Shown here piece after piece: positions 1-64,000 of a stretch of DNA of 64,000 nucleotides. Under the pieces are notes generated by a model that had not been told where the DNA came from, made no database searches, and was given only the letters and a program-made list of their open reading frames with translations. Made by a program: the position numbers and the translations under genes. The DNA comes from Styela clava (taxonomy: Eukaryota > Chordata > Ascidiacea > Stolidobranchia > Styelidae): the NCBI RefSeq assembly GCF_964204865.1, contig NC_135250.1:23241395-23305394 (forward strand), written 5' to 3'. Each line of letters starts with the position of its first letter. Positions within the stretch are counted from its first letter, which is position 1.

Positions 1-1
1 T

Positions 2-958
2 AGAAGATTTCTCGTTGAAAATGAACCATTGATATTTGAATCTATGCAGTCTCTTCGTTCACTGACTTTATCAATACTGGACAGCCATCCTGAGAATATC
101 AGTTCAAAAGATTTCGATTTAACAGAGAATGAACAGCTTGTTGTTTTTGATCAAACTTCTCAAAGAATGCATTGTCATGATATTGATGCTAAAACATGGA
201 CACCAATGCAAACCATAGATCAAGCAATTATACAGAATACATTACATTCTGCTGTAGTGATTGAATCTTACATTTATGTGATTTGTAGAAATGGATCGTT
301 TTATAGACTTGAATATGCTGAATCAAATGCAAAGTGGGAACAAATGACAAATACAAATCTTCAGTGGGCATGCGTAGTTGCACTTGATGGTTTTGTTCAT
401 GGTATTGAATATCAGAATTACTCAAATGTTTTGGAAAGATATGATCCATCAAATAATAGATGGACCAGACTAACAAACAAATCATTGATTCTAGCTTTTG
501 AATCTTTGGTGGCTGCTGATGGAAAGGTGTTTTGTATTGCAGGATATTCTAATCAGATAGGTCGAGCAACAAACCAAGTTGAGATTTATGATCCTGTCAC
601 ATCAACTTGGTCAATGGATAATGGATCATTGAATGAAGCAAGATATCAAGCTTCTGCAACTGCTACAGAGGAAGGAATATATGTTGTGGGAGGTTATGAT
701 AATAATAGAGGTTCAACTCTCACTACTGTTGAATTTCGTTCATCTGTAACTAATACCTGGATGATGTTGAAACCAATGAAAAATGCAAGACAATTTTTCA
801 GTAGTTGTGTGATTGATAAGAAGGTTTATGTCATTGGTGGAAATGGAAATCCTGCAAATATAGAGGAATATGATCCTGAAACAGAAGAATGGAGAATCAT
901 TGAAACAATACAAGGAAAAGATAATTTTCCACGAGCAACTGTTGCACTATCTATATAA
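2..958 (+). CDS. K1: BTB-BACK-Kelch (KLHL-like) gene, 3' portion only
   Basis: The window opens inside the gene, at the end of the BACK domain (RRFLVENEPLIFES), with codons in frame from base 2. The visible part runs through the whole C-terminal Kelch propeller to a TAA at 956-958. Kelch hallmarks are present: the paired glycines of FCIAGYS, VVGGYD and VIGGNG, each followed by a Tyr (IYDP, EYDPETEEW) and a Trp. It is co-linear with the intact 543-aa copies, so about 230 N-terminal residues lie upstream. Copy-specific residues include Arg in ICRNG, Ala-Phe after SLIL, Tyr-Gln after NEAR and Gln-Phe-Phe after KNAR. KLHL proteins are usually substrate adaptors of Cullin-3 ubiquitin ligases; that role is inferred from family membership. 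No lesion is visible in this part. The ATG at base 29 is an internal Met, not the start. Confidence 0.88.
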   Translation, partial: RRFLVENEPLIFESMQSLRSLTLSILDSHPENISSKDFDLTENEQLVVFDQTSQRMHCHDIDAKTWTPMQTIDQAIIQNTLHSAVVIESYIYVICRNGSFYRLEYAESNAKWEQMTNTNLQWACVVALDGFVHGIEYQNYSNVLERYDPSNNRWTRLTNKSLILAFESLVAADGKVFCIAGYSNQIGRATNQVEIYDPVTSTWSMDNGSLNEARYQASATATEEGIYVVGGYDNNRGSTLTTVEFRSSVTNTWMMLKPMKNARQFFSSCVIDKKVYVIGGNGNPANIEEYDPETEEWRIIETIQGKDNFPRATVALSI

Positions 959-2711
959 CATTGATTGCTCTTATACTTGAACAAATATGGTTCTCATATT
1001 CTTGATGAAAATACTTATCATTCTTTCTAATTTGATCTCAAATTAATTTCCTCTGCAGAATGATGTACCGGTAAATTATTGAATTAGTTATCTGTGTGTG
1101 GTAATATATCGAATGAATAATTTCTTTGACAACATTGAATATTGTTTTTCAATCCATTTATCTTAAGAACGAATGTACAGTATGTTTAAAGATACAGCTT
1201 CAATAATTTGTTTTTCATAATATAGCCAATATCAATACTGATAATTTGATTGCTCGGTTAGTTAATCATTACCTATTTTACTTGGAAGTGATAGTGAAAA
1301 TTTCTTTCATATTGTTGGTGTTGATTTTTTATTGTTTTTTTGTTTGTTTTATCATTGCATTTATCATGTTCAACAATTTAATCTCTAATTCTTGAAAATT
1401 TATCATTTTTCAATATTTTATTCAATTTTGTGGTATATCAGATTACAGGGGATTACCCCATATTATTTTTTATGGTTGGTATGGTATGGGTTGTTATCAT
1501 ATCTCTCTCATTACCTTGCATTGACTGTTTATGATGTGACCTATCTGATTTTAGTTCTATACATGAATTCAAGTTTTTCATCTTTATGATCCAGCGGAGG
1601 TTATTTATATTAAAAGCTCATTCCTTCGAGATCACTGTATTTTTCAATTATTATCATTCCACTGCTTTTTTGATATAAAAGTTCGAAGATATGCATGCGT
1701 TAATTATTATTCATGCTTTTTATTCTTTGAGTAACTGACCAAAAAAATTGTGTTTTTGTAAATGAAATATTTAGGTTAGTGGCATACCATCATCTGTATA
1801 ACGTCATAACAGACTTGGTGTGGCCTTCTAGGTTGAGAACAATTATTCAACTTCTGATACTTCTATTCTGAAAATGATGATAATTTTGAGAAAATTTCAT
1901 TTCCGTGAATTTCTTTGCATCTAGTGAGCTATGAAATATAATCATTAATTATTGATTTCAATTACTGATTATCAGACAATAAGTTCTGTAATAAAGGAAA
2001 TATGATTTTATTGAATATCCTCAAAAATTTGTTATTGTAGTATATTAATATTGACTAATTCACTGAACTTGATAAAATATACTGTGATAGTGAAATTGTT
2101 ATTACGTTATGTATAAAAGGTAATAGGAGGAAATATAAATTTTCATCTTGATGCTTTCAGTTAATATTCTGACAAATTCCTACTGGCATTATTCATGTAA
2201 TTTTTCAGGGTTGTAATTTGCAATATTGATATCATAATTAGATCAGCTGGGAAAGAAATTAAATATTATCTCATGGTCGCGGAGTTCCTGCTTGTCTTCA
2301 TAACATGCTTGATTCGTCACTCAACAATTTTCCAAAAGATTGTTGAAGATGATTTGATGCATATTTTTGATAAAGTTTTACGCAGACAACACATGTCATT
2401 ATTGTTTAGCATAAAGTGGAATTGATATCAGGCTGTGAAGTTGGCGGTTTAATAAACTCATTTTGATATTTGCTTAAAACAGCTGTATTTCAAATGTCCT
2501 CGAGTTGGATTCAAAATAGATTAATGGCTTGAACTTAAATTTTTTCATATCTAGAACAACAGTAGATAATCGAATTGTGAGAAAGTTTAAAAAGTGGAGT
2601 AGTTTTTAATTTTGATGGTGTCATCGCACACAAAAACTAAATACTAAAAAGCCAGCAGAAATATTTGAAATAAATGAAAGTGATAGACTTTTAGCGAAAA
2701 ATACAATCGTT
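959..2711. repeat. Duplicated 3' flank of K1 (type 1)
   Basis: Non-coding, AT-rich spacer. It is clearly homologous, with small indels, to the DNA after K2 (9452-10990), after K6 (53436-56230) and to an orphan copy at 26600-29760. Shared landmarks include TTTTTTATGGTTGG, the CATACCATCATCTGTATAACG stretch and the CTGTAATAAAGGAAATATG stretch. It belongs to the tandem duplication unit. No gene was recognised in it. Confidence 0.8.
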
Positions 2712-3318
2712 AAAAAATCGTTCAGAGTGGAGAGCGATAGCTTATTGCCCTTAACCTACGTTCGCTATTAATTTCAATGACCAGACCGTTTTATCTTTTC
2801 CTCTTTATTATGTACATTATATAGATGTAATAGTTTGTTTGTATTCCTCATAAGACTCTATCAATTTTTCGTAAGTGTCTCCTAAATTGCATTTGCTGTA
2901 AATATTTTCGATTTACTGTTTGCCTTATATTGCTTTTAGTTGCATATTCCGCCAAACTTGCCCTTCCTATATTTTTCTGTGCTTTTATCTTGCTTTTCTC
3001 GCGTTTTTATTAGTTGTTGGTAATTATTCCGTGAAAGTTACATTTTCTGTTTTACTGTGCCATAATCGCATACATTTCGAATGTCGCTGTAATTGTATCA
3101 GTTGTGACTTATTCCTAGGATTTATTCATTTTATCCCTCATTTAATTATGTTTATTCTAACCTGTAGCGCTGTAGGTGTCGCTGCTTGAAGACCTTCTCA
3201 GGTCCCTCGCGACTCCGGTCACGCAAAAACATGATTAGTACTGTAATTTATTCATTGTGTCACTTTATGTTTGAACGTGTTTTTTTGTGATGACAAAATA
3301 AACGATTGATTGATTGAT
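2712..3318 (+). mobile_element. 5'-truncated LINE 3' end (CR1/L2/RTE-like tail)
   Basis: This 600-bp block interrupts the type 1 flank. The homologous spot after K2 (about 11004) runs straight from AATCTTTAA into CCACTGG. The block ends in AATAAAC followed by three to four GATT units, a short-repeat tail typical of CR1/L2/RTE-type LINEs rather than a poly-A tail. The short ORF inside shows no recognisable reverse-transcriptase motif. Clade assignment is inferred from the tail only. Confidence 0.5.
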
Positions 3319-3677
3319 TAACCACTGGAAATTTCAAAGCAATTCCTCCAGTAGGTAATGAGGAAAGATATTTTCTCACAACAACATATTAACAAAACGA
3401 TTCATATGTACACTTCATGACCAATTGGAATCTAGAAGATCGGGATATTATATTTTAATTAATATTTTTGGTGATCTGTCATTGTCGAGCAATCGTGATC
3501 ACACTAGATGGTATCCAAGAGTTACTCAATCCCGCTCAATCCAACACCAGATAGTTAGGGTATTCCCCGTTTCAGGAAGGTGCTGTGTTGTGGGATATAC
3601 AACACCGTGCATTTTGTTTCGGCATTCTGGATATACCGGTATAAGTTTATTTTCATTCATCAATGAACTAGGTATAT
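3319..3677. repeat. Module P, left part, first copy
   Basis: Duplicated spacer sequence also found at 11005-11390, 29760-30019, 32871-32975 and 58928-59251. It includes the TCATGTCCAATTAGAATC region, a stretch reading GGTATTCCCCGTTTC and the TTGTTTCGGCATTCTGGA block. The LINE fragment at 3678-4681 splits it. No gene is seen. Confidence 0.7.
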
Positions 3678-4681
3678 ATATTCAATATAGGTCAACAACT
3701 AAGTGTTCACTATAATTTACCTGTAAATAATAGTGTATATCATTTTATTCAACCTAATAAGCATTATAAATGTATTCTAGAGTTCATAAGAGTGCATAAT
3801 ATCACTATAAATGATGTTAGGCTGGGGCATCATAGAACTTTATATGATAAAATTGTTGATACATTGAAATGTGAAAGAATTGTATTTCTAAACAATGGGG
3901 ATATTCGAACAGCATGTTTGAATATTCATAATAAAATTCTAGCTAATCATGTAAAAACTTTTAACTACAAATTATTGTGGAATATTTTACCGCTTAAAAC
4001 AATGTCAAGAATTAGATATATTGCTGGGGATGACCTATGTGTATTTTGTGACAAAGAAGCTGAATTTATAACACTTTATTCTGGAATTGCTCATTTGTGA
4101 AACAATTGTATGATTATGTTTTTTCTATTATCATGAAAATAACTAACAGTGGCAACTTAATAAATTATGAAACATGTATATTATTAGATTTAAGACAATA
4201 ATTATGTACATTTGACCAATATAGAAAAAAATGCTATTATTTTATTGATATGTACTGCAAGATATAAAATTTGGTTGCAAAGAAATGCAGTGATTTTTGA
4301 AAATGTAATGCCAAGAGTGAATAATGTAGTCAATACTATAAGAAATTCAATAAGGTGTAGGAGGAATATAGAACGACTGAGAAATTTACCTAATTATTGT
4401 GAAGAACTTGATTTATTATGCAAATATATATAAATATGACTAGAAGTGTTTATCGTAATGAAGTGGAACTAATTCTTAAAATTTTATTTTTCATGCATTA
4501 ATTAAAATAATGGTAAATGACATCATGGAACATATAATAGATGATAACAACAAATGGGAGTTACAACGGATATGCTACAATACGGATACAAATGATCAAT
4601 ATTTATTATGGAATTTATACTGTCTCATCTGTATGTAATGATTTATATTATTATTTTATCTATAAAAGAAAAAAAAAAAAA
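3678..4681 (+). mobile_element. 5'-truncated L1/Tx1-like LINE with poly-A tail and 16-bp TSD
   Basis: The insert is flanked by the direct repeat AATGAACTAGGTATAT at 3662-3677 and 4682-4697. It ends in an A-rich tail (about 4666-4681), as expected from target-primed reverse transcription. The same locus is uninterrupted at about 11373-11390 and 32956-32972. Internal frames (3792-4100, 4212-4433) encode the post-RT tail of a non-LTR retrotransposon ORF2, with a CVFCDKEAE zinc-binding motif and an ILPLKTMSRIRYI stretch like the tail of the element at 59252-60790. Frames are broken, so it is inactive. Confidence 0.8.
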
Positions 4682-5270
4682 AATGAACTAGGTATATGTG
4701 TGAATGCGATATTGAAGAGACTTTATGTCATTAATTTTTGGGGTCTTACTACTAACTTAATACCGTACAACGCGAAACACCGCAAAGAGCGCAAAACAGA
4801 GGGAAACAGCGCATAACAGAGGAAAATAGCGTGAAACAGAAGGAAACCAGCGCCAGTCAGGAGACCCAGTTATAACCGCCTCATGACGGCTCCTGCCACA
4901 AAAGAACAACGGCACCTCTCGTCATGGTTTTATGGCGCTATTTCCGGTATTTTTACGAGGTTATGTAGCGGATTCTAGGTCATCGTGCGAAATTTAATGT
5001 ACTTTTTTTTTTTATCTAACTCTAACCCTAAAGCTAAATCAATTAAAACTGTATCCATATGAAAAATGTTCAAAATTGCGTTACTCAAAATGTGTCACGA
5101 GCAGGAGCAGACCTGTCATTACAGCCTACATGCCTCGGTTTGTATTTTTAATTTGCTGCCGTGTTACCCCAACTCAAAAAAAAATAAAAAATATGTGCCC
5201 CAACTCATTGCAAATTTTTTATCCTGCTTTGCGCTGTTTTCCTCTGTTGCGCGATGTGTTCAATAAGTAG
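4682..5270. repeat. Module P, continuation (GCG/AAACAG-rich arm and core)
   Basis: The sequence resumes after the LINE. From about 4747 it contains an arm of degenerate GCGCAAAACAGAGGAAA words. The complementary words TTTTGCGCTGTTTTCCTCTG appear near 5225-5250, so the module is bounded by inverted arms. The core (4880-4960) holds a CTCCTGCCAC...CATGGTTTTATGG motif related to the ends of the Zisupton-like element at 34410. Paralogous copies are at 11436-11937 and 33019-34010. No coding capacity was seen. Confidence 0.65.
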
Positions 5271-7360: not shown

Positions 7361-7749
7361 AGTATCAGTTCAGGTTTTTAGGCTTCGAAACATCTCGAGA
7401 ACAAACCAAATTAAACTAATATTATTACATGATACCGGTACTTGCATTTTACACTCCACAAGAGATTTGTATTTTCAGACATTTGGACCTGATAGGTGTA
7501 TTTGATGTTCGTGGTACAGCAACGTTTATCTGTTATGTCGCCAATTCAACAGTTGGTTAAACAAATGTTAAGTTTTTCTGTTTTGCTCAGTTGAAGCAAT
7601 TCTGGTATATTTAAGATGGTCTGGATCATGCAGTTGTGCTTGGTGATGAAACATTTTTTTTTGAATATTGAGGTTTATTTTTGATTGACTGTTATGTCTA
7701 ATTACGGTAATTACCGTATCTTTAAATTATTTATTTTTTTCTATTGTTT
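7361..7749 (+). repeat. Type A 5' leader of K2
   Basis: A conserved block that lies 5' of K2, K3 (14461-16379, interrupted by a hAT) and K5 (48302-48681) but not of K4, K6 or K7. In K3 and K5 it happens to be open for 68 codons, but the K2 copy has a TAA in that frame (about 7415). It is therefore treated as promoter or intron sequence, not a conserved peptide. It may contain the promoter and first non-coding exon; this is inferred. Confidence 0.55.
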
Positions 7750-7817
7750 AAGGTCTTTTCAATAATAGTAGTAGTATCATAAAATTCTTTATAAAATCAA
7801 ACCAAGTCATCTCAAAA
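7735..7817 (+). promoter_or_regulatory. K2 leader: pyrimidine tract + AG, TATAAAA, Kozak
   Basis: A T-rich tract ends in TTGTTTAAG|GTC (AG at 7751-7752), shaped like a 3' splice site 66 nt before the ATG. A TATAAAA word lies at 7790-7796. The start context CTCAAAAATGG has A at -3 and G at +4. The AG could accept a 5'-UTR exon or a trans-spliced leader. Alternatively the TATA word could serve a promoter immediately upstream. The two readings cannot be separated by sequence alone. Confidence 0.45.
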
Positions 7818-20065: not shown

Positions 20066-20790
20066 TGGCTTCATCGAATTTTGATATTCAAGGAACTTGT
20101 AAAAGTTTAACTCAAGTCATTGAAACCTGTGGTGTTAATTCACTCGGAAATATTTTTCAAAAAAAGATATTTTTATCAACAAAACACGATGAGACGATTC
20201 CTGTGACTGGATGGAGCAATGTTCCAACTTATAAATAGAATACAAATACATGGAGTGCAAGTTGAAGGACCAGATATGGTGGCTCTTGGAGATTTTCACT
20301 CAGATCTCATGTATTATCCTCAAAGATTAACCACAGAACCACATTCTGTGTTGTAAGCAACGATTCTGGTTCTATTGGACCGGACAAGAAGAAGGATAAG
20401 CAAAATCTGAATTATGCCTTGAAGAAGTTCTGTGATATTTTTGAGTTACCATTACCCAAACTTGATATCGTTTCAAGAAAATCACCTGGACATGGCAGTG
20501 ATATAGCAGATTATGAATTAGATGAAAATGGAAAAATGAGTTTGTCACCAAGTGGTCGTTTTCAGCTTCAAAACAAATTGAAAAAATTCCCAATTTTGCC
20601 AAATGGAGATGCTTATCTTCTTCCTATTTGTAGTTTTGAAAATGCTTTTTCGGTTCGTTTCTTACACAAACTTTCATCAAAATTCAATGGCAAATACCAA
20701 CATAAAATTGGAGAATTATGCAAGAAGAATGATATCTTGGGAAAAGTCTGTAGAATATTATTTGTACAACCGACGAATTCCCTGCACTGA
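20066..20790 (+). pseudogene. Decayed ORF of unknown family
   Basis: From ATG at 20066 one frame runs to TGA at 20788-20790 (about 241 codons) with two internal stops, a TAG at about 20236 and a TGA at about 20264. A second frame (about 20208-20356) also reads like protein (LDGAMFQLINRI, EGPDMVALGDFHSDL). The likeliest history is a real coding sequence with two compensating frameshifts. The last 124 codons are fully open (KKFCDIFELPLPKLDIV, SPSGRFQLQNKLKKFPILP). No introns are evident, so it may be a processed copy. I do not recognise the family. It lies between K3 and K4 and shares nothing with the Kelch genes. Confidence 0.4.
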
Positions 20791-31690: not shown

Positions 31691-32735
31691 TAAGACTAAT
31701 CCACACCTCATAACAGAATTTGAGTGTGGCTCCATATTTCTGAACTGCTCAAGTCTGTGGCTCCATTTTCTATCCTGTATTTCCAGGCAATAAATTCTCG
31801 GTTAAATGTGATTCAAGCGTATTCTTTTCACTAATAAGGTTTGCCTGTACCTTCAAGATCATTACTAACCTGTTAAACACACATAAAATAAGACTAATCC
31901 ACTTCTCAAAACGAATTTGAGTGTGGCTCTATATTACTGAACTGCTCTAGTCTGTGGCTCCATTTTCTATCCTGTATTTCCAGGCAATAAATTCTCGGTA
32001 AAATGCGATTCAAGCATATTCTTTTCACTAATAAGGTTTGTCTGTACCTTCAAGATCATCACTAACCTGTTAAACACACAAAAAATAAGACTAATCCACT
32101 TCTCAAAACGAATTTGAGTGTGGCTCCATATTACTGAACTGCTCTAGTCTGTGGCTCCATTTTCTATCCTGTATTTCCAGGCAATAAATTCTCGGTTAAA
32201 TGTGATTCAAGCGTATTCTTTTCACTAATTAGGTTTGCCTGTACCTTCAAGATCATCACTAACCTGTTAAACACACAAATAATAAGACTAATCCACATCT
32301 CAAAACGAATTTGAGTGTGGCTCTATATTACTGAACTGCTCTAGTCTGTGGCCCCATTTTCTATCCTGTATTTCCAGGCAGTAAATTCTCGGTTAAATGT
32401 GATTCAAGCGTAATCTTTTCACTAATTAGGTTTGCCTGTACCTTCAAGATCATCACTAACCTGTTAAACACACAAAGAATAAGACTAATCCACTTCTTAA
32501 AACGAATTTGAGTGTGGCTCTATATTACTGAACTGCTCTAGTCTGTGGCTCCATTTTCTATCCAGTATTTCCAGGCAATAAATTCTCGGTTAAATGTGAT
32601 TCAAGCGTATTATTTTCACTAATAAGGTTTGTCTGTACTTTCAAGATCATTACTAACCCGTTGAACACACAAAAAATAGGACTAATCCACTTTTCATACC
32701 AGAATTTGAGTGTGGCTCCGTATTACTGCATAGCA
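31691..32735. repeat. 197-bp tandem satellite, about 5.3 copies
   Basis: The landmark TAAGACTAATCCAC (variant TAGGACTAATCCAC in the last copy) recurs at 31691, 31889, 32086, 32283, 32480 and 32677, a period of 197-198. Units contain GAATTTGAGTGTGGCTC, TCTGTGGCTCCATTTTC and TTCTCGGTTAAATGTG and are highly similar. They show no coding pattern. The repeat is far too long for a CRISPR unit and has no spacer structure. Confidence 0.92.
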
Positions 32736-35013: not shown

Positions 35014-38000
35014 ATGGCAGATACTTATTTTAAGACAAAATCAAAAAATTTTGATGATTTGTGCATAAAAGTGAATGATTTTTACCAATGCATACTATGT
35101 ATCGGAGTATCATTTACAACACCAGGTGGATTTCAACACCACCTGAAAACTCAACATATCGAATATGCTGTTCATATCATCAATGGGGATGAAAGAGGTA
35201 TGTATACAGTATTACTGGTACAGCCTATAATTACTGAATATTTTCGTTGTGATGACTGGTCATTTTATAAGTCGGTATATCTTCAAATATTTTAGCTTTC
35301 ATTATGCCTTGTAGAAGAGATTGTATGAAGCGAGGAACAAGTGCTTTGACCAGGAGTCACTATCATTGTCCCTCCTGTGAAAAAATATTTGGACGGAGAA
35401 ATTCTATGATTGACCACAGGAGGCTTACTAAGAGTAAGGGTTAAAACTATTTTGTGGCTTATTTCTTGCAAATAGAGTACCTAGCTATAACACAGTAACT
35501 TTGGAATTTCAATGTTTTGTGTAGATTGTTTGGGTGCGATTGAAAGTGAAGAAGTCAGGGATATGGACATAGATTCTAAAAACAAAAGTTCAGAAAGTCT
35601 ATGTGAAGGTAAGCTAATGATTGAAAAGATGTTCTAATGGATATTTAGCAAGTATTAGGTATTGAGTTGGTGTCCGCTTATAGATATGAGAGCATAAATA
35701 ATTGTTTATTGTATGTCAAGAAAACTCGTGCATTGAAATTTTGTGATTTGTATCTATTTCTTTACCACTTTTACATGATTCATTTTCATTCGATATTTTT
35801 TTCACATTTTTAGACCTTGTTCGTTTACATACTTTTACTTTACAGGTACTTTCAACTTTCAATGCATACCTTGTGACAAGCGCTTTAGGCATCAGTCGTC
35901 ATTGAGGCGACATGCTCAACTTAAACACAATGCAACTCAGCTTTTACCGAGCGTATGTGTTGACACATTCAATGGAATCTATATGGTTGCTCAAAGTGGT
36001 TCTGGCCCACTTGCTCCAATTCATGTTCAAAAGCACACATTGAAACAAAAAATTATGTGCACTGATGACGACTGTATTTCAATTATCAAAGCCATTTCAA
36101 CAGTCAATCCAGGAATCCAATGTCGACATTTGGACTCTATCTCTGAATCTTCAATTTTAACGACAAACAAACTGCAACTGTCATCGCTAAACCGACTAAG
36201 GGAATTTAATATATTGAATGATTCGTCGGTTCAATGGTGCAAAAATATGAAGGAAATCAGTGAAAAGGATTGCTGCACTCTTGTAGCCCTTGTTGATTTT
36301 TCAACAATGGGTTTCGAAACAAGAACAATCTATTTTTCCGTTTACACTGAAAAAATTCAATATTTTGCACCATTGAAGAGGGTAAGAGTTTCTTTCAATA
36401 AAGATAATGGGGAATTTTCGTGCCTTTGTCCAACCTCGGGCATGAGTTCGACATGTTACCATGAGGCTGTAGCGAAGTGGTGTTTATTGGAGCAACAACC
36501 TGAATGGATCAAGCGCCCTTCCAGGTTTATTTAAAGCATTTTTATACATAATAGGTGTATTTTCTTTTATAATGAATTATATTCTGCAGTAGTATTAGTT
36601 ATATAATCCAAAATATTCACCTCATCTTTCCTTTCTACCAGCAATCTTACTTAGTAGCATGTGTGCTTCCTTGTTTTATTGGACAGATTGGTTAAATGCC
36701 TAATTTTTTATTTCATTTTTATGTTGTAGCCCAGGGGTGGCCAACACGTTGATCGACCGGTTGATCGCCACGTTCTGAGTGGTCGATCTCGTCTGATGTT
36801 TAGAAAATTCGGTAACATATCTTGAAAAATTGCGTTTAACCAGTTTCATGCAGCGCATGTTGTGTGTTTTATAATAGAAATAATGCAGTACTGCGCACAC
36901 GCTAAATACGATATACACATATAGTCCTTGAACCCAAGCGAGGCCGACTGAACAAATTATTATGCGATATGCAACGAAAGAAAGTTTTGCCACTGCCAAA
37001 AGTAAGAAAATGAGCGTTCCGAATGTCGTGTCGCCTGAATCGAGTATTGAATATTGCCTGAACTAACGTAGGATCGTACGATAACTCTTGCGCTCTGTGG
37101 AAAGTAGTTGTCTCACTCCGGGAGTAGTGTGATAAATTTTATTCTCAACTGTAGCAGTCGCATCAGAATGCCAATTTTTCCTAATTCTAGGCGAGCTAAG
37201 AGGATATCAGGAAGTTTCAACAATCATGTAACTGTTATGGTTTGCGAATATTTATTTATTTTTTGCTATTTAGATAATACATGGATACTAAGCAAGTTTT
37301 TTTTGAGAAATTCAACACTTACGACTGAAAACTAGATTTTAGTCGATCGCGGTCGCAAGTAGGTTGGCCACCTCTGTTGTAGCCTATTCAATATTTTTTT
37401 ATAAATATTTGGATTAGGTATTTTTTAACATAGTAGAACTTGCTTTGGCAAGATGCATTTTCTGATATTTCTCATTTACAATGCTTCACATCTTTTACAG
37501 TATTTGTCATACACTGACTGATAATATGGACTATATGATGAAGTATTTTTTAACAAAAAAAAGAATTCCAGCTGAAATACCTCAGCGTCTTTTGCGTGAC
37601 ATTTCTCCTCCGCTTTTGCTGACTCCCTCTGAACAAAAATGTCTTAAGTGCAACGAGGATTTATGCATCAAGAATAAAAAACGAACAGTAGCATATGGAA
37701 TGGGCCACATTTGGAAAAGTATGAATGCTTGTCATTGTATGGTTTAAACTTCTTATTGGTATAAAATACGAATTTTGTATTTCGACCAAATAACTTTGCC
37801 TAAGTCGAAACGTTAGATAATAGCCTGTGATATTATACCCAGATATTTAAATCATGCTTCTATGTTTTATTCCTTAACAACTATTTTTACGAGTTATTAT
37901 AAATGTTTGCACAGCAACTGAATTATTCATCAAGGAATGTGCTGAATGTGGAATGGAAGTTAGATATCAAGAATATGAAGAAGGTTTTCATAATTTTGAC

Positions 38001-48748: not shown

Positions 48749-50386
48749 ATGGAAGAAAAAATCAATACAGATTCTAAAGAACATGCTGTTGAAATTTTAC
48801 AACAATTAAATGAATATCGTAAAACTGGACGTCATTGTGATTTCATGATCAAAGCTGGATCTGAGGAACTTCCTGTTCATAAGAATATTGTGTCGGCAAG
48901 TTCAGATTATTTTAAAGCGATGTTATCTCATGAAAATGTTGAAACAAAATCTGGTGTTGTTGAAATAAAGGAATTTGATGAAGTTTGTGTTAAAAAATGT
49001 GTTGATTTCATCTACACTGGGGATGCTTATGTTGCCAAAGAAAAACGTGAAACACTCATGGGTGTCGCTCACATGATGCAACTGCAAAGACTTTGTGATA
49101 GTATCACAATTTTTCTGGAAGATGATCTTGATCCTAGATCGTTTTTTCAAACTAAAAAAATTGCAAATAGGTACAACTGTAAACAACTTGAGGAAAAATG
49201 CAATCAATTTGCATTGCAGCGTTTTATAGAAATTGCCCAGTCTGATGAGTTTATGGATCTTGATGAAAAATTTATTTCATTTCTGATGGAATCAAAGGAA
49301 ACAAAAGCAAAGGAAGAAGGGAAATGTAAGATGTTGTTAGCATGGACCAAGCATGATATTGATGAAAGAAAGGAATGTTTTCTTAGTTTGGTGATGAAAT
49401 TTCAGTTGACAAAAATGACTTTGTCATATAGAAGATTTCTTGTTGAAAATGAACCATTGATATTTGAATCTATGCAGTCTATCCAGTCGCTGACTTTGTC
49501 AATATTAGACAGCCATCATGGGGATATCAGCTCAAAAGATTTTAATTTACCAAAGAATAAACAGCTTGTTGTTTTTGATCAAACTTCTCAAAGAATGCAT
49601 TCCTATGCTGTTGATGATAAAACATGGACACCAATGCAAACCATAGATCAAGCAATTATGCAGAATTCAATATATTCTGCTGTAGTGATGGAATCTTACA
49701 TTTATGTGATTTGTACAAATGGATCGTTTTATAGACTTGAATATGCTGAATCAAATGCAAAGTGGGAACAAATGGCAAATCCAAATCTTCAGAATGCATG
49801 TGCAGTTGCACTAGATGGTTTTGTTTATGGTATTGAATATGGAAATTACTCAAACATTATGGAAAGATATGATCCATCAAATAATAGATGGACCAGACTA
49901 ACAAACAAATCATTGATTCTATGTGGAGAATCTTTGTTGGCTGCTGATGGAAAGGTGTTTTGTATTGCAGGATATTCTAAGCAGCAATATCGAGCAACAA
50001 ACCAAGTTGAAATTTATGATCCCGTCACATCAACTTGGTCAATGGATAATAGATCATTGAATGAAGCAAGATATTATGCTTCTGCAACTGCTACAGAGGA
50101 AGGAATATATGTTATGGGAGGTTGTTATAATAATAGTGGTTCAACTCTCATTACTGTTGAATTTCGTTCATCTGTAACTAAAACCTGGATAATATTGAAA
50201 CCAATGAAAAATGCAAGAACACAGTTCAGTAGTTGTGTGATTGATGAGAAAGTTTATGTCATTGGTGGGAATGGAAATCCTGCAAATATAGAGGAATATG
50301 ATCCTGGAACAAAAAAATGGAAAATAATTGAAACATTACAAGAAAAAAATTTTTTTCCAAGAGCAACTGTCGCAATTTCTATATAA
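48749..50386 (+). CDS. K5: intact BTB-BACK-Kelch protein, 545 aa
   Basis: Uninterrupted single exon with the same layout as K3 (BTB 25-130, BACK 135-240, propeller about 270-542). It is two residues longer, through an extra His before GDISSK and a longer loop after VMGG (CYNNSGSTLI). BTB-BACK is almost identical to K2 and K4. Face residues differ again: Thr in ICTNG, Asn in LQNAC, Gly-Asn-Tyr in EYGNYSN, Cys-Gly after SLIL, Tyr-Tyr after NEAR, and Thr-Gln-Phe after KNAR. It is presumed to be a Cullin-3 substrate adaptor by family. It lies between the Zisupton-like element and K6, with a type 2 3' flank like K4. Confidence 0.93.
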   Translation: MEEKINTDSKEHAVEILQQLNEYRKTGRHCDFMIKAGSEELPVHKNIVSASSDYFKAMLSHENVETKSGVVEIKEFDEVCVKKCVDFIYTGDAYVAKEKRETLMGVAHMMQLQRLCDSITIFLEDDLDPRSFFQTKKIANRYNCKQLEEKCNQFALQRFIEIAQSDEFMDLDEKFISFLMESKETKAKEEGKCKMLLAWTKHDIDERKECFLSLVMKFQLTKMTLSYRRFLVENEPLIFESMQSIQSLTLSILDSHHGDISSKDFNLPKNKQLVVFDQTSQRMHSYAVDDKTWTPMQTIDQAIMQNSIYSAVVMESYIYVICTNGSFYRLEYAESNAKWEQMANPNLQNACAVALDGFVYGIEYGNYSNIMERYDPSNNRWTRLTNKSLILCGESLLAADGKVFCIAGYSKQQYRATNQVEIYDPVTSTWSMDNRSLNEARYYASATATEEGIYVMGGCYNNSGSTLITVEFRSSVTKTWIILKPMKNARTQFSSCVIDEKVYVIGGNGNPANIEEYDPGTKKWKIIETLQEKNFFPRATVAISI

Positions 50387-51802: not shown

Positions 51803-53435
51803 ATGGAAGAAAAAATCAATACAGTAACTAAAGAACATGCTGTTGAAATTTTACAACAATTAAATGAATATCGTAAAACTGGACGTCATTGTGATTTCAT
51901 GATCAAAGCTGGATCTGAGGAAATTCCTGTTCATAAGAATATTGTGTCGGCAAGTTCCGATTATTTTAAAGCAATGTTATCTCATGAAAATGTTGGAACA
52001 AAATCTGGTGTTGTTGAAATAAAGGAATTCGATGGAGTTTGTGTTAAAAAATGTGTTGATTTTATTTACACTGGGGATGCTTATGTTGCCAAAGAAAAAC
52101 GTGAAACACTCATGGATGTCGCTCACATGATGCAACTGCAAAGAATTTGTGATAGTATCGCAATTTTTCTGGAAGATGATCTTGATCCTAGATCGTTTTT
52201 TTCAAACTAAAAAAATTGCAAATAGGTACAACTGTAAACAACTTGAGGAAAAATGCAATCAATTTGCATTGCAACATTTTAAAGAAATTGCCCAGTCTGA
52301 TGAGTTTATGGATCTAGATGAAAAATTTATTTCATTTCTGATGGAATCAAAGGAAACAAAAGCAAAGGAAGAAGTGAAATGTAAGGTGTTGTTAGCATGG
52401 ACCAGAAATGAAATTGATGAAAGAAAAGAATGTTTTCTCAGTTTGGTGATAAAATTTCAGTTGACAAAAATGACTTTGTCATATAGAAGATTTCTCGTTG
52501 AAAATGAACCATTGATACTTGAATCTGGAAAATCTCTTCAGTCATTAACTTTGTCAATTTTAGACAGTACTGGGAATTTCAGTTCAAAAGATGTCAATTT
52601 AACAGAGAATAAACAGCTTGTTGTTTTCGATCAAACTTCTAGAAGAATGCATTCTCATGATGTTGATGATAAAACATGGACACCAATGCAAACCATAGAT
52701 CAAGCAATTATACAGAATACATTATATTCTGCTGTAGTGATGGAATCTTACATTTATGTGATTTGTAAAAATGGATCGTTTTATAGACTTGAATATGCTG
52801 AATCAAATGCAAAGTGGGAACAAATGACAAATACAAATCTTCAGTGTGCATGTGCAGTTGCACTTGATGGTTTTGTTTATGGTATTGAGTATGGAAATTA
52901 GTCAAACATTATGGAAAGATATGACCCATCAAATGATAGATGGACCAGACTAACAAACAAATCATTGATCCTAGCTCTTGAATCTTTGGTGGCTGCTGAT
53001 GGAAAGGTGTTTTGTATTGCAGGATATTCTAAGCAGCAATATCGAGCAACAAACCAAGTTGAAATTTATGATCCTGTCACATCAACTTGGTCAATGGATA
53101 ATAGATCATTGAATGAAGCAAGACGTCAAGCTTCGGCAACTGCAACAGGGGAAGGAATATATGTCATGGGAGGTAAAAATGTTGATGGAAAATCTCTCAC
53201 TACTGTTGAATTTCGTTCATCTGTAACTAAAACCTGGATGATGTTGAAACCAATGAAAAATGCAAGACAATATTTCAGTAGTTGTGTGATTGATGAAAAA
53301 GTTTATGTCATTGGGGGAAATGGAAATCCTGCAAATATAGAGGAATATGATCCAGAAACAAAAGAATGGAAAATCACTGAAACAATACAAGGAAAAAATA
53401 TTTTTCTAATGGCAAGTTTTGCAATAAATATATAA
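51803..53435 (+). pseudogene. K6: BTB-BACK-Kelch pseudogene with two lesions
   Basis: Co-linear with K3 over its whole length, but broken twice. The T-run before SFFQTK has seven Ts (52196-52202) instead of six, shifting the frame so that the first ORF ends at 52210. A TAG at 52899-52901 replaces the Tyr codon after EYGN. The three open pieces (51803-52210, about 52200-52898 and 52902-53435) otherwise match the sisters at nearly every residue. The homopolymer change could be a sequencing slip, but the nonsense change is independent, so loss of function is likely and recent. Its face residues remain copy-specific (Lys in ICKNG, Cys in LQCAC, Ala-Leu after SLIL, Arg-Gln after NEAR). Confidence 0.88.
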
Positions 53436-58927: not shown

Positions 58928-59251
58928 ATAGACTTTTAGCGAAAAATACAATCTTTAACCAGTGGAAATTTCAAAGCAATTACTCCAGTAGGTAATGAGG
59001 AAATATATTTTTTCACAGCGACAACAACATATTAACAAAACGATCAATATGTACACTTCATGTCCAATTAGAAGATCGGAGAATTATATTTTTAGTGGGG
59101 TGTCATTGTCGAGCAATCGTGATCACACTGTATGGTATCCAAGAGCCACTCAATCCAACACCAGATAGTTGGGGTATTCCCCGTTTCACGGACAGCAGGC
59201 AGGATAGTGTTGTGTTGTGGGAGATAAAACACGGTGCATTTTGTTTCGGCA
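58928..59251. repeat. Module P left part, truncated by a LINE
   Basis: Follows the other module P copies through TTGTTTCGGCAT and is then replaced by LINE sequence at 59252. The remainder of module P is missing on the other side. Confidence 0.65.
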
Positions 59252-60790
59252 TAGACGGCTTAACAAAAGGATTTTACGCCAAATTTTGGAAGTCAAATAA
59301 ACCAATTCTACTTATTCTGTACCAAAGCTTTCATGATATAGGCGAAATGTCACATGATTCAGCAATAGGTGTCATAACACTTTTTATATAAAAATGGAGA
59401 CAAAGATGATTTAAAAAACTGGCGCCCAATATCCTTGTTGAATTTCGAATATAAACTTATAGCAAAATTATTGGCTAATAGATTAAGAAATGTATTACCA
59501 GAACTAATTGGACAAGATCAAACTGGATTTATTTTTGGCAGAGTAATTCATGAAAATTTTAGGGATGACATCTTTTGGGCTAACCAACAAAACTTACCTC
59601 TTATTATATTTTCAATAGATCGGGAGAAAGCATATGACATGGTCGATCGAGAACTAGTATTACGCCTTTTACGAAAATTGGGCTTTAGAGAATATTTTTT
59701 TAAAATGGATTCGAACCCTGCACCGTAACATCCGTTCGAAAATTATTACGAATGGCTACTTGTCACAAGATTACCTGTTAACAAGGGGAGTGAGACAAGG
59801 ATGCCCATTAGCACCATATTTGTGTCTGTTTATAGCTGAGCTTTTAGCAATCAATAATAAATCTGATAAAGATATTTTGGGATTCAGCAATTGTAGTGGG
59901 CAAATCGAAATTCATAAAGGGTACGCAGATGATACAACTCTGACTGTAACAAATTTGGCTTCTATCGATGAAAGTCTTAAAACATTAAAACATTTAGAAA
60001 TGGGTACGGGAATACGAATTAACAAACAAAAATGTAAAATTCTATTGTGTGGAAATGGAGTTAATTGGAATATTGGCCCAGAATACAAATGTATTGAGGT
60101 CAATAAAGATGAGATTAAAATATTGGGGGCATACTTAGGGAATAACACTAGTTCCATTGAAAAAAATTGGAACAAAGTTCTTAATAGTGTCCAAAGCATA
60201 ATAAATCTGTGGAGGGCCCGAAATCTTTCTATAATAGGAAAAATCAAACCAATTGAATAATCAAATTATTGGTCATAATATATATGTTGCAAACAAGCTA
60301 CATCTTATCCAACCTATCCCATGGAAAAAGATTTGGCAAATAAAAGTACCCAATAAGTATAACGAACTAAGCTGGAAAACCATACATACTGGGCAGCCTA
60401 CCGCAGATAAAATAAAATATGGGGTTAGGAAAGAATCGGGCATATGTGTATTATGCGATAATGTAGAGGAAACTTGTTTTCATCTCTTTTTCGATTGTGA
60501 TTGGACCCAGAATTTTTGGGGCTGGTGCAATATAGGACAATTTACTCCAGACCAAATCATAGCCAACAACATAGAAAACAAGTCTGTGTTGTTGACTGTG
60601 ATTTGTGGCAAATCAGCAATCTGGCAATACAGAAACTCTGTCAAATATGATGCTAAAATGCAGTGTAATTTAAGAGCAATTTTCAAATGTAAAATACTGG
60701 GATGTATGAGTTTGATGGACAGTGAATGCAGGAATAATATTATGCAATACCAACACAATGATGATGTATTGAATAAATCCATCATGTTAT
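59252..60790 (+). mobile_element. L1/Tx1-like LINE remnant with reverse transcriptase
   Basis: It begins inside the RT domain (DGLTKGFYAKFW), continuing after frame changes with NWRPISLLNFEYKLIAKLL. Motif A follows (SIDREKAYDMVD), then RQGCPLAPYL and the catalytic YADDTTL. The tail holds a zinc-binding CVLCDNVEETCFHLFFDC. Breaks: frames change near 59395, the sequence shifts near 59730, and a block is missing at about 60247-60253 between LSIIGKI and the tail. It is 5' truncated and dead. The 3' end probably lies beyond 60790; an A-run at 61340-61351 is a candidate. Confidence 0.85.
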
Positions 60791-61352
60791 AATATCAATT
60801 CCAAACTAATTAAAAACCAATACTCTGCAATCATTAGCCATCTCACGACTCCGGATTGTGTACCATAGTTACTAATTTTGGGTATAATTTCTACTTTTTT
60901 ATACAACGAAAAATAGGGTTACATAGACTGAAAATGTAGAGAACACCTAATGGCATGATAGGTGTTCTTCTGATTATTTGTCTAATTCTTTAAAAATTTG
61001 TTTTTCATGTTAAATGCTAATAATGTATAAACTTAAAATATATGTTGTATGGTATAATGTTTTCAATGGTCACTGGATTACATGGATACATGGATTGCCA
61101 TTTCATGAATGCGGATACAATTTAAATTGGGTTTTTAGATCAATACGGGTAAATGTATCTGAATTGTTTAATATTTGACAATATTTATCTATGTATTGTA
61201 TACTTATATGCTCTATAATATCACCTAAATTACCTGGAAAATTGAGATTCATGCAACTAAATTGGAATATTATATTTGGATAAACCAAAACTATCATTTT
61301 CATAAATCCGAATTGGCAATGGATTTAAATTTGGCAAAAAAAAAAAAGTAAG
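60791..61352 (+). other. Possible LINE 3' UTR
   Basis: AT-rich, no ORF, and ends in a run of twelve A. No target duplication matching the left flank was found, so assignment to the LINE is tentative. Confidence 0.35.
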
Positions 61353-61353
61353 G

Positions 61354-62450
61354 CAGTGGTTAGCAACCAGGGTGCCGCGGCACATTAGTGTGCCGCAGAA
61401 AGATTTTGGTGTGCCGCGACGAGATTTCATTTTCGAATTTATTTCAAGTGATTCCAATTGCCAATCACTTGAATTCCACAAGAATTATCCCATGGCTCTT
61501 GCTAACAAACAGAAACGAAAAATTTAGTAGGAGTCGTATTTCAGGTATTTGGGTATTGTTTTAATTCTAAGTTTTGCATAATGCGCGCCAACACCTTTTC
61601 GTAAAATTGAAAATGTCAAAAAAGGTAACAAATTACTCTGCGAAATTTTGTTCCAAATTCGACCAAGAAATTATTATTTGACTATTATTTATTTGACTTT
61701 GCAGGATTTTTATTCACTATTTAATACGAAAATAAAACAGATACAATAGGAGAGTAAAATCATAAGAAGGTCAACTATCGTCTTTATAAATATCCGCATC
61801 CCTGCGTCAGAAATCATAATATTGTTAGCTCAAAATTGGGACAGTTAATTTACAATCGGTGGGGAGGAAGATCAAACCCGGCGTAAAAAAAAAAATCAGA
61901 ATAAAATCCTGAATTCACTCTTTAATAGTCGTCTTTAAAATATGTCGCCCATATAAATGTATAGTTCTCCCAGGAATATAAAACCAACTGTTGAGCAAGA
62001 AGTAGTTCTTGTAAAAAGAGAGAACGGGCGGAAATAGCTCATCAACATTAGAATGCCTAGCATGTGTATAAAAAATACCCAGAAAAAATACTTGGAATAT
62101 CAAAATTGGACTAATGATGTACCGTAGATATGGGTATTGGTTGATTTTTTATGCAAATGTTAATTTTCTGGGAATGGGATCTAATCTAATCGAATTTGGA
62201 GGGAAAATAATCAAAATTTAATTCGATCAATTGGCGTAAAAAATAAATTATTATAACAAAAACATGCCTGTATCGCACATGGTTGCCATATTGTCATTTT
62301 TTCTGCCAAATTTAGCAATTTTGTTATTTTAAAGTACGTTTAGACATTTGGCGTCGGGATTTCCGTTTGATATTTTGGCATTTGTTGTAAACTTAGTTTT
62401 GCATATTACAGTGTTATTTGTCGGGTTTTAGTTGTGTATTTGAAAATATT
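61354..62450. other. hAT-like end, then unrecognised spacer
   Basis: Begins CAGTGGTTAGCAACCAGG followed by GTGCCGCGGCAC and GTGTGCCGC words, the look of a common hAT left end. No matching right end was found before K7. The rest is AT-rich with no gene that I can support. Confidence 0.4.
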
Positions 62451-62735
62451 CGAAAATTAAATAACTTAATTGTCATTATGCCTTCGGATATTCTGAGGAG
62501 CTTCAGTTTAAGCAGTCAATATTCCACATCATTCTTTTCATAGCTCCGAGATTGTGATGTGTACTTTTTTGATCAGGCATTGCCTTTAGTTATAGTTTCA
62601 TTTTTTTCTATTGTATTCATTGTTGCATAAAGCAATCTCTTTCAATTATAGTTTTTCTATTGTTTAAGGTATTATTATTAATAGTGGTATAGGCATAAGC
62701 AGTACTTTATAAAATCGAACAAAGTCATCTCAGAA
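62451..62735 (+). promoter_or_regulatory. K7 leader (type B)
   Basis: Homologous to the K6 leader. TTTCTATTGTTTAAG|GTATT has AG at 62667-62668; AGTGGTATAGGCATAAGC and TTTATAAAATC follow. Start context is CTCAGAAATGG. Confidence 0.5.
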
Positions 62736-64000
62736 ATGGAAGAAAAAATCGATACAGATTCTAAAGAACATGCTGTTGAAATTTTACAACAATTAAATGA
62801 ATATCGTAAAACTGGACGTCATTGTGATTTCATGATTAAAGCTGGATCTGAGGAACTTCCTGTTCATAAGAATATTGTGTCGGCAAGTTCCGATTATTTT
62901 AAAGCAATGTTATCTCATGAAAATGTTGAAACAAAATCTGGTGTCGTTGAAATAAAGGAATTTGATGAAGTTTGTGTTAAAAAATGTGTTGATTTCATTT
63001 ACACTGGGGATGCTTATGTTGCCAGAGATAAACGTGAAACACTCATGGGTGTCGCTCACATGATGCAGCTGCAAAGACTTTGTGATAGTATCGCAATTTT
63101 TCTGGAAAATGATCTTGATTCTAGATCGTTTTTTCAAACTAAAAAAATTGCGAATAGTTACAACTGTAAACAACTTGAAGAAAAATGCAATCAATTTGCA
63201 TTGCAACGTTTTAAAGAAATTGCCCAGTCTGATGAATTTATGGATCTTGATGAAAAATTTATTTCTTTTCTGATGGAATCAAAGGAAACAAAAGCAAAAG
63301 AAGAAGTGAAATGTAAGATGTTGTTAGCATGGACCAAACATGATATTGATGAAAGAAAAGAATGTTTTCTTAGTTTGGTGATGAAATTTCAGTTGACAAA
63401 AATGACTTTGTCATACAGAAGATTTCTTGTAGAAAATGAACCATTGATGTTTGAATCCATGCAATCTCTTCGATCACTGACTTTGTCGGTTTTTGATAGT
63501 CATGGGGATGTCAGTTCAAAAGATGTCAATTTGACAAACAATAAACAGCTTGTTGTTTTTGACCAAACTTCTCAAAGAATGCATTCTCATGATGTTGATG
63601 ATAAAACATGGACACCAATGCAAACCATAGATCAAGCAATTATACAGAATACATTATATTCTGCTGTAGTGATGGAATCTTACATTTATGTAATTTGTAT
63701 AAATGGATCGTTTTACAGACTTGAATATGCTGAATCAAATGCAAAGTGGGAACAAATGACAAATACAAATCTTCAGTGGGCATGTGCAGTTGCACTTGAT
63801 GGTTTTGTTTATAGTATTGAGCATGGAAGTTTCTCAAACATTATGGAAAGATATGATTCATCAAATAATAGATGGACCAGACTAACAAACAAATCATTGA
63901 TCCTGGCTCATGAATCTTTAGTGTCTGCTGATGGAAAGGTGTTTTGTATTGCAGGATATTCTAATCAACAAGGTCAAGCAACAAACCAAGTTGAGATTTA
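62736..64000 (+). CDS. K7: BTB-BACK-Kelch gene, 5' portion, runs off the window
   Basis: Open from ATG 62736 to the window edge with no stop, covering BTB, BACK and the propeller to about residue 421 (ATNQVEI). Length to the edge equals the sisters, so it is probably intact so far. Differences from them include MEEKIDTDSK, VARDKRE, ENDLDSRSFF and ANSYNCK in the otherwise invariant N-terminal half. Face residues are again private: Ile in ICINGS, Trp in LQWAC, Gly-Ser-Phe in EHGSFSN, and Ala-His after SLIL. Family role (Cullin-3 substrate adaptor) is inferred. Confidence 0.9.
   Translation, partial: MEEKIDTDSKEHAVEILQQLNEYRKTGRHCDFMIKAGSEELPVHKNIVSASSDYFKAMLSHENVETKSGVVEIKEFDEVCVKKCVDFIYTGDAYVARDKRETLMGVAHMMQLQRLCDSIAIFLENDLDSRSFFQTKKIANSYNCKQLEEKCNQFALQRFKEIAQSDEFMDLDEKFISFLMESKETKAKEEVKCKMLLAWTKHDIDERKECFLSLVMKFQLTKMTLSYRRFLVENEPLMFESMQSLRSLTLSVFDSHGDVSSKDVNLTNNKQLVVFDQTSQRMHSHDVDDKTWTPMQTIDQAIIQNTLYSAVVMESYIYVICINGSFYRLEYAESNAKWEQMTNTNLQWACAVALDGFVYSIEHGSFSNIMERYDSSNNRWTRLTNKSLILAHESLVSADGKVFCIAGYSNQQGQATNQVEI

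Follow-up and report, generated by a model that had tools for sequence, protein, structure and literature searches.

A Styela clava array of BTB-BACK-Kelch genes whose differences lie mainly on the propeller's predicted target-binding face

We consider it reasonably probable that an array of at least 22 genes in Styela clava has been diversified by positive selection on the binding-face loops of a Kelch propeller, and that its products serve as CUL3 ubiquitin-ligase adaptors for many foreign or non-self proteins. The concentration of diversity in particular loops, positive selection in the propeller and not in BTB+BACK, and the recurrence of the pattern in a second subfamily are among the grounds for this. 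What had been noticed from the letters is confirmed, and on firmer ground than a reading of the letters could give.

The array and its domain structure

The array occupies 286 kb (C1:23.02-23.31 Mb) and holds at least 22 intact BTB-BACK-Kelch copies, closely similar and all on the plus strand, together with broken copies. Its genes are single-frame and run in one direction. The window, which is the whole 64-kb stretch of DNA analyzed here, spans part of the array and contains seven plus-strand Kelch copies (K1 to K7). K3 (L021; 16447-18078; 543 aa), K4 (L005; 23178-24809; 543 aa; identical to P0005), and K5 (L001; 48749-50386; 545 aa; used for reference numbering) are intact BTB-BACK-Kelch genes, and K7 (L006; 62736-64000) is the 5' part of an intact 543-aa copy that continues past the window end. 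K2 (L030; 7818-9451) is broken by a single frame shift that separates its BTB-BACK part from its Kelch part, and K6 (L024; 51803-53435) carries a frame shift in BACK plus one in-frame stop, which falls on hypervariable codon 367. K1 (L023; 2-958) is represented in the window by its 3' part, residues 228-545; its genome match covers only residues 49-545 of K5 and contains a TAA. The sequence-only reading had treated K1 to K7 as one array; the seven copies are there, but they are not uniformly intact, and the array is thus a mixture of intact and broken genes. Reverse-transcriptase remnants also lie inside the window.

Lineage-specific tandem expansion accompanied by broken copies is a feature of adaptor families of the MATH-BTB/F-box type, and it is seen here as well. 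The array holds one identical pair of copies, and more arrays of this kind occur on C17, C10, and C18. Outside this genome, the best match not labeled as Styela was 28% identical (P0049) in three word-based protein searches of a database that may or may not include other Styelidae.

In K5, Pfam domains PF00651, PF07707, and PF01344 scored above cutoff in the order BTB, BACK, Kelch, which is the KLHL order. With borders that we set ourselves (127/128 and 232), the BTB region comprises residues 1-127 (48749-49129, plus strand; dN/dS of 0.16) and the BACK region residues 128-232 (49130-49444, plus strand; dN/dS of 0.21). A linker of residues 233-268 follows (49445-49552, plus strand), and then a six-bladed Kelch propeller of residues 269-545 (49553-50383, plus strand), identified by Pfam, an AF2 model, and Foldseek. 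The AF2 model has a pLDDT of 89.2 and six blades, with a pTM of 0.54 that leaves domain placement uncertain. The propeller matched that of KLHL12-DVL1 with a Foldseek TM by target length of 0.84 and that of KEAP1-Neh2 with 0.82.

Variable sites and selection on the propeller

Entropy was computed by region over 28 sequences in K5 numbering. Sites above 1 bit numbered 0 of 127 in BTB, 3 of 105 in BACK, 8 of 36 in the linker, and 47 of 277 in the propeller, so BTB and BACK are almost invariant, as had been noticed from the letters. What had gone unremarked is that this alikeness is accompanied by low synonymous divergence (dS of 0.08 and 0.15), and that the linker is divergent, with high synonymous divergence and no selection under M8.

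The propeller motifs picked out by the sequence-only reading do coincide with high-diversity positions, except for position 493, a nearly invariant Phe. Following the blade lead-ins these positions are 349 (LQ-x-AC), 392-393 (LIL-xx-ES), 442-443 (NEAR-xx-AS), and 491, 492, and 494 (after KNAR). Codons 392-393 (49922-49927), 443 (50075-50077), and 491-492 (50219-50224), all plus strand and in D-A loops, are hypervariable by entropy and selected under M8 with both 7 and 22 copies; codon 349 (49793-49795, plus strand, D-A loop) has a posterior of 0.99 with 7 copies and below 0.95 with 22. The positions after the glycines are 323 (IC-x-NG), 365-367 (EY-xxx-SN), 414-415 (after AGYSNQ), and 459-461 and 463-468 (after GG). 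Here the hypervariable codons, again plus strand and by both entropy and the 22-copy M8 fit, are 323 (49715-49717, B-C loop); those within 365-367 (49841-49849, B-C loop; 365 and 367 under M8); 409, 414, and 415 (49973-49993, a B-C loop and its strand ends); and those within 459-467 (50123-50149, B-C loop; 464, 465, and 467 under M8). To these we add codon 538 (50360-50362, plus strand), in the D-A loop that closes the propeller, which is hypervariable by entropy and under M8 with 7 and 22 copies and was missing from the earlier description. At 10 core sites, 21 of the 22 copies are mutually distinct.

Variable sites are concentrated in loops beyond chance (P = 2.7e-10). With faces assigned by loop class rather than by coordinates or distances, sites of entropy ≥1 among the 22 copies made up 32 of 99 residues in the top (B-C and D-A) loops, 1 of 39 in the bottom (A-B and C-D) loops, and 8 of 136 in strands (P = 5e-9). 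Among the 17 sites selected under M8 with 22 copies, 13 lie in B-C or D-A loops and 2 (409 and 415) belong to strands, where these border one B-C loop; the remaining two, 500 in an A-B turn on the far side and 269 at the N-terminal edge, are off the face and had not been noted before. Apart from these two, the earlier placement of the variable residues on the substrate face is borne out: they are neither scattered over the propeller nor gathered on the opposite side. KLHL substrate residues sit in the B-C and D-A loops, and any given vertebrate KLHL protein keeps these loops conserved, as described in PMC10146909; the loops that vary here are also those that grip substrate in KEAP1. On the modeled fold, array diversity is mostly concentrated on the predicted target-binding face.

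Site models (M7, M8, and M8a) were fitted with our own code and do not allow for recombination; on this basis, the propellers of the 22 intact copies gave a 2dlnL of 298.7 for M8 over M7 (P = 1e-65), with 8.8% of codons at an omega of 5.1. For BTB+BACK in the same copies, M7/M8 found no positive selection (2dlnL of 0.0), and an omega of 0.20 indicates purifying selection. Selection in the substrate domain but not in the cullin-binding part is another feature of such adaptor families, as is the placement of selected residues on the ligand face, which is seen here by loop class. The seven window copies alone gave 75.5 for the propeller (P = 4e-17; 94.9 with a star tree), and the five unbroken inside the window gave 44.7. 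By part, the seven copies gave 19.7 for blades 1-3, 43.6 for blades 4-6, 0.2 for the linker, and 0.3 for BTB+BACK. The diversifying selection proposed earlier therefore stands by M8, although the simple pairwise dN/dS at the M8 codons is just 1.38.

The same design recurs in a second Styela subfamily, which is 33-35% identical to the array copies; other subfamilies show it weakly. On its own model, the second subfamily varies at 34 of 96 top-loop, 2 of 38 bottom-loop, and 11 of 139 strand residues (P = 1.6e-8), and 26 variable positions, of 44 in each, are common to both subfamilies (P = 2e-13). The six-copy C17 array gave an M7/M8 2dlnL of 11.5 (P = 0.003), with variable sites mildly enriched on top (24/93 versus 25/172, P = 0.03). 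Three small groups had mixed patterns: A-B loop variability equaled that of B-C in P0037/38/40 and exceeded it in P0039/41, the third group being P0044/45. Among 19 IPP-type proteins from fish, used as a control, variability was higher in BTB (0.61 bit) than in the top loops (0.29 and 0.32), which still slightly exceeded the strands (0.23) and the bottom loops (0.08 and 0.18).

Proposed role and alternative explanations

Because the intact copies differ mostly on the predicted target-binding face, each likely adaptor would catch a different protein. The conserved BTB-BACK half would dock on CUL3 and dimerize, and each hypervariable face would grip its own ligand, probably a pathogen-encoded intracellular protein, which would be marked for destruction. 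Gene conversion, for which a signal is present, would hold the shared framework uniform and could also move loops from copy to copy. We infer a foreign or non-self target class, in the manner of the worm MATH-BTB and F-box adaptors; the immune, self/non-self, or genome-defense role suggested by the sequence-only reading is likewise an inference. More tentatively, the array could be an intracellular, germline-encoded, antibody-like repertoire for discriminating non-self proteins, in which a shared degradation scaffold bears a hypervariable, Tyr/Asn/Cys-rich paratope from equivalent loop positions in several blades, re-sorted by gene conversion and largely private to each individual; we regard this fuller picture as possible rather than probable.

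The private element comes from a second S. clava annotation set, taken from record labels to be a different individual, in which 2 of 18 proteins matched an array copy at ≥98% (the other 16 matched best at 60-91%) and for which, in reverse, 2 of the 22 array copies had a match at ≥97%. With so few near-identical counterparts, Kelch repertoires may be individual-specific. Plant S-locus F-box proteins are linked ligase adaptors that jointly recognize non-self partners, and a comparable haplotype-specific cluster for self-sterility or allorecognition between individuals would suit both these low counts and the linkage of the copies in one 286-kb cluster. We think it unlikely, as the additional arrays on C17, C10, and C18 do not fit a single locus, the individuals are told apart by record labels, and collapsed assembly of similar copies could create false private copies.

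Alternatively, constraint may simply be relaxed, with gene conversion homogenizing the copies everywhere but in surface loops that tolerate change, and a modeling artifact accounting for the excess over neutrality. The kelch copies do show signs of recombination (in the 22 copies, 11 of 500 permutations fell no higher than the observed value), three of the seven window copies are broken or incomplete, and pairwise dN/dS across the top loops is 0.96. This account is disfavored and improbable: M8 is preferred not only to M7 but also to M8a, by 223.8, and null simulations of the seven-copy set (n = 30) reached at most 4.2 without recombination and 11.1 with strong recombination, against 67.8 for the data under the same fit. 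Moreover, the A-B and C-D loops are surface too, yet hardly vary, and many positions are variable in both this array and the second subfamily.

Recognition of transposon or endogenous-virus proteins, in the way that KRAB zinc-finger arrays track transposons, would agree with a presumed intracellular protein, fast diversification, and the reverse-transcriptase remnants in the window; such remnants are ordinary in animal genomes, however, and no copy has been linked to a transposon protein, which makes genome defense very improbable.

A CUL3 adaptor role is likely as predicted from the domains. A phi-x-E motif in BTB is the CUL3 contact. It reads M-S-E in KLHL3 and F-S-E in KLHL11, and N-V-E in 22 of 22 array copies, so that the Glu is kept and Asn replaces the hydrophobic residue. 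Full-length K5 matched CUL3-bound KBTBD2 and KLHL22 in Foldseek with good E-values and with TM of 0.38-0.43 and rmsd of 18-24 (KBTBD2: E of 6e-30, TM of 0.38-0.39, rmsd of 23.5, with domain placement in the model uncertain); the domains are placed differently. A CUL3-independent Kelch protein that binds actin or the cytoskeleton, or a decoy with a face that keeps pace with a rapidly evolving partner in the host, would accommodate the Asn and the annotation of most named non-Styela BTB-Kelch matches as actin-binding IPP, but it is the least probable reading given the retained order of BTB and BACK and the retained motif Glu, the purifying selection on BTB+BACK, and the CUL3-bound proteins among the full-length matches (TM of ~0.4).

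Relation to known systems

Invertebrate chordates are not known to have rearranging antigen receptors, and the array may bear on how these animals achieve fine recognition inside cells. If the adaptor reading is true, a large family in the sister group of vertebrates, with a conserved degradation scaffold and one binding face diversified by strong selection, would give them a recognition system ready for use within the cell; its binding faces would also form a natural Kelch library of value for designed degraders. Sp185/333 proteins of sea urchins are unrelated to the Styela Kelch proteins and lack ligase domains. The two resemble each other as clustered, similar, fast-diversifying genes of an invertebrate deuterostome, immune in the case of Sp185/333 (PMC5103432).

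The earlier remark that no described system of this form was known is too strong, given the worm MATH-BTB/F-box, fish finTRIM, and fungal HET-E/HET-D families; a Kelch version of a diversifying ligase-adaptor family was not found among the literature matches listed. Diversifying MATH-BTB and F-box adaptors are known in Caenorhabditis and, per its title, in plants (Thomas 2006, as cited in PMC4334554). Compared with the Caenorhabditis families, the Styela substrate domain is a Kelch propeller, the host is a chordate, and the selected residues fall at equivalent places in several blades.

The teleost finTRIMs, which carry TRIM ligase domains, are likewise a chordate family that has expanded, and their selected sites fall in the loops through which the target domain binds, according to PMC2657112. 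Their B30.2 domain gave an M7/M8 2dlnL of 231.62, and that source names no ligands either. Unlike the Styela proteins, in which BTB+BACK shows no selection, they have a RING/B-box/B30.2 composition with selection also near RING (PMC2657112). In the fungal NLRs HET-D and HET-E, as here, diversification affects a propeller at its predicted interaction face; a few codons per WD40 repeat change there, serving non-self recognition, while concerted evolution keeps the repeats alike, as presented in PMC12222747. There, the repeats belong to one NLR gene and act through NLR signaling, whereas the Styela array consists of many separate genes, each encoding Kelch blades, with predicted protein degradation as the outcome. 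Finally, KEAP1, KLHL12, and other vertebrate KLHLs share the domains and fold of the array proteins and use the B-C and D-A loops for substrate; in those proteins, as described in PMC10146909 and PMC8161161, the loops are conserved inside any one KLHL, whereas among the closely similar Styela copies they are the most variable part.

Copies of the array and where they differ

The seven copies of one BTB-BACK-Kelch gene in the window (K1 to K7, all on the plus strand) belong to a larger array. The window occupies C1:23,241,395-23,305,394 and the surrounding array 23,019,491-23,305,758, with every copy on one strand. At least 22 copies are uninterrupted frames of 537 to 546 aa beginning MEEKI, and the rest, including K1, K2, and K6 of the window, are broken or partial; copy counts are lower bounds, as the best 80 of 604 candidates were scored. 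Pairs of the 22 intact copies share 83.0 to 100% protein identity (median, 86.9%). The database proteins at ~90% identity carry the label of Styela clava, an ascidian tunicate, and copies from the assembly that contains the window are identical (100%) to named S. clava proteins. Two loci ~4 kb apart (L008 and L013) encode identical proteins, which points to a very recent duplication or conversion. The stop interrupting K6 (window 52899-52901) falls exactly at hypervariable codon 367.

Differences among the copies were measured as column entropy in an alignment of 3 window copies and 27 of 36 close Styela proteins, partial or fused models being excluded; two rows repeating window copies were then removed, leaving 28 sequences. 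Mean entropy was lowest in BTB (0.10 bit) and BACK (0.20) and higher in the propeller (0.51) and linker (0.59). The near-invariance that the sequence-only reading had ascribed to BTB and BACK was borne out, with 0/127 and 3/105 sites above 1 bit, respectively, and 8/36 such sites in the linker and 47/277 in the propeller. The 22 genome copies alone gave 0, 2, 12, and 43 sites in the same order.

At the most variable sites, Tyr, Trp, Cys, His, Arg, Gly, Asn, and Gln recur, and residues 414 and 491 (numbered on K5, 545 aa) each take up to ten different amino acids. Ten core sites suffice to tell apart all complete members of the protein set (n = 25) and 21 of the 22 genome copies. Tyr makes up 22% of the residues at these core sites, and 11.5% over the 21 sites with entropy of at least 1.5 versus 5.2% elsewhere in the propeller. 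A variable face bearing Tyr would resemble antibody paratopes.

An AlphaFold2 model of K5 had a mean pLDDT of 89.2 and a pTM of 0.54, with loose placement of its two halves, and its propeller matches those of KLHL12 with the DVL1 peptide and KEAP1 with Neh2. Strands A to D were assigned by Kelch motif, with strand B ending in GG and strand D containing Trp. In the alignment, residues 442-443 and 491-492 come after the blade Arg, just as Ser-Gly does in the designed Kelch consensus; we take them to be the counterparts of KEAP1 S363/G364 and N414/R415. Propeller residues with entropy of at least 1 number 36/99 in the top (B-C and D-A) loops, 2/39 in the bottom (A-B and C-D) loops, and 8/136 in the strands (28 sequences; p = 2.7e-10). 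The 22 genome copies gave 32/99, 1/39, and 8/136 (p = 4.8e-9), so that, judged by loop class, the variable residues do appear to lie on the substrate face, as had been proposed. Excerpts of PMC10146909 place the Nrf2-binding residues of KEAP1 in the B-C and D-A loops, and those of PMC8161161 list Y334, G364, R380, N382, N414, R415, R483, S508, Q530, S555, and S602 as contacts.

Selection on codons and signs of gene conversion

The M7/M8 site-model comparison suggested alongside that proposal was run on the 22 copies. In the propeller, M8 was favored over M7 (2ΔlnL = 298.7) and over M8a (223.8), with 8.8% of codons in a selected class with an ω of 5.1; for BTB plus BACK the M8-M7 statistic was 0.0 and overall ω 0.196. 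These values come from custom code in which branch-length proportions were fixed from an HKY+G tree and posteriors were naive (NEB). Seventeen codons had a posterior of at least 0.95: 13 are in top loops, 409 and 415 are at the ends of strands adjoining a B-C loop, and 500 (an A-B turn) and 269 (the N-terminal edge) lie off the face. With the seven window copies, the second residue after the blade lead-in was selected in five blades (349, 393, 443, 492, and 538), and with 22 copies all of these except 349 exceed 0.95. Simple pairwise dN/dS ratios were lower: 1.38 for the M8 codons, 0.96 for top loops, 0.62 for bottom loops, 0.37 for strands, 0.21 for BACK, and 0.16 for BTB. Chance or an alignment artefact is ruled out by the loop test together with the codon models.

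Neighboring informative sites were more compatible than shuffled ones in the window copies (p = 0.005, 0.013, and 0/1000). In the Kelch part of the 22 copies, 11/500 permutations were at or below the observed value; BTB plus BACK gave no signal (114/500). This signal calls for caution in reading the site models, and recombination is also a possible means of loop shuffling. The seven-copy selection signal persisted on a star tree, after restriction to the five copies unbroken within the window, and in separate analyses of the two propeller halves, each on its own tree. Null simulations, made for the seven-copy set, reached a maximum of 4.2 (n = 30), and nulls with labels permuted every 20 codons a maximum of 11.1 (n = 30), versus 67.8 when the same short fit was applied to the data; other fits of the data gave 77.7 and 75.5, and the Nelder-Mead optimizer may stop short, as 1 of the 30 recombining-null fits ended at -25.7. 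Purely relaxed constraint is disfavored by the M8 fit to the 22 copies and by these recombining nulls for seven.

Synonymous divergence is uneven as well (dS of 0.08 in BTB and 0.69 in the linker), which would fit uneven homogenization. The jump is found at the K5 linker (window 49445-49552, codons 233 to 268) and at the same place in other copies, at ~0.69 versus 0.08 to 0.20 in most neighboring parts. M8 detects no selection in this region, and the jump may mark where a gene-conversion tract ends.

Other families and apparent differences in repertoire

A second Styela subfamily (P0046-P0048 and P0096-P0104), 33 to 35% identical to the array proteins over the whole length, shows a similar distribution on its own model (pLDDT, 87.8): entropy reached at least 1 at 34/96 top-loop, 2/38 bottom-loop, and 11/139 strand positions, in columns holding at least 5 of the 12 sequences. 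Of 270 positions compared, 44 are variable in each family and 26 in both (p = 2.3e-13), although the per-position rank correlation is modest (0.31 over all positions). Evidence for this subfamily comes from annotated proteins rather than from frames read in the genome. In a genome search with P0047, the only near-identical matches were a pair of 76-residue segments on C13 (95% and 92%).

Six copies drawn from a third array (C17), among them two near-identical pairs, gave p = 0.003, with one selected site in a D-A loop and another in a B-C loop, and their variable sites are only mildly enriched on top (columns with at least 4 of 6 sequences). The small groups P0037/38/40, P0039/41, and P0044/45 have a weaker or mixed pattern. 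In 19 fish IPP-type proteins, hand-picked among database matches as a control for ordinary drift in Kelch proteins, variability was highest in BTB (0.61), followed by the top loops (0.29 and 0.32), strands (0.23), and bottom loops (0.08 and 0.18). The top loops of this control exceed the remainder of its propeller by little, and on this basis a pattern common to any Kelch family was rejected. More groups of single-frame BTB-Kelch genes, ~31 to 37% identical to K5, lie at C17:4.43-4.77 Mb, C10:2.67-2.76 Mb, and C18:3.12-3.15 Mb, among which the analysis covered the six C17 copies.

The protein records of the array family fall by label into two sets of 18, one naming a 32.7-Mb contig and the other with UniRef or nr accessions only, which we infer to represent two assemblies. 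In the first, 15/18 match a genome copy at 99% or more, with the remaining three, all gene models, at 90 to 95%. In the second, 2/18 (P0007 and P0025) match at 98% or more and the other 16 at 60 to 91%; conversely, 2/22 array copies reach 97% in that set. The comparison covers 30 loci and the window, with a protein database clustered at 90% identity, in which some counterparts may hide behind a representative. These differences suggest that individuals may carry largely private sets of copies. The mismatch could be increased by collapse of similar copies during assembly, incomplete gene models, cryptic lineages, the database clustering at 90%, or copies beyond the 30 loci. Excerpts of PMC12222747 describe a comparable repeat domain for which long reads permitted reconstruction and Illumina assemblies did not.

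Possible function, precedents, and other features of the window

From what is known of the family, BTB and BACK would dimerize and bind CUL3, and the B-C/D-A face of the propeller would grip a target that is then ubiquitinated; only half of the CUL3 motif is preserved. A race against many changing ligands would be expected to leave the scaffold conserved and the binding face under strong selection, and foreign proteins have been proposed as such ligands for comparable worm and fish families. Ubiquitin-ligase adaptors that diversify in the substrate domain are already known, going by excerpts of PMC4334554 citing Thomas 2006. The portion of PMC2657112 on finTRIMs supplies a precedent of the same kind, whose targets had likewise not been identified, and that of PMC12222747 describes the hypervariable propeller faces of HET-E/HET-D. 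Among the matches listed from open-licence PMC papers, there was neither a chordate Kelch version whose face draws on equivalent positions in several blades nor a paper on Styela Kelch genes.

ARAGORN found no tRNA in the window. Downstream of K3 lies a fragment of an SMPD4-type gene (window 20266-20790; PF14724, E = 5e-18), and the annotated protein P0026, which joins a Kelch copy to a PF14724 domain, is probably a gene-model fusion. At window 59658-60792, the remnant of a LINE-like element has its reverse transcriptase and zf-RVT domains spread over two frames that overlap, and a tandem repeat outside genes occupies window 31691-32728 (direct self-match of 94% at an offset of ~198 bases). 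The open frame at window 35779-36534 has as its sole Pfam match a weak C2H2 finger below the cut-off; by eye, its Cys/His pattern is SWIM-like.
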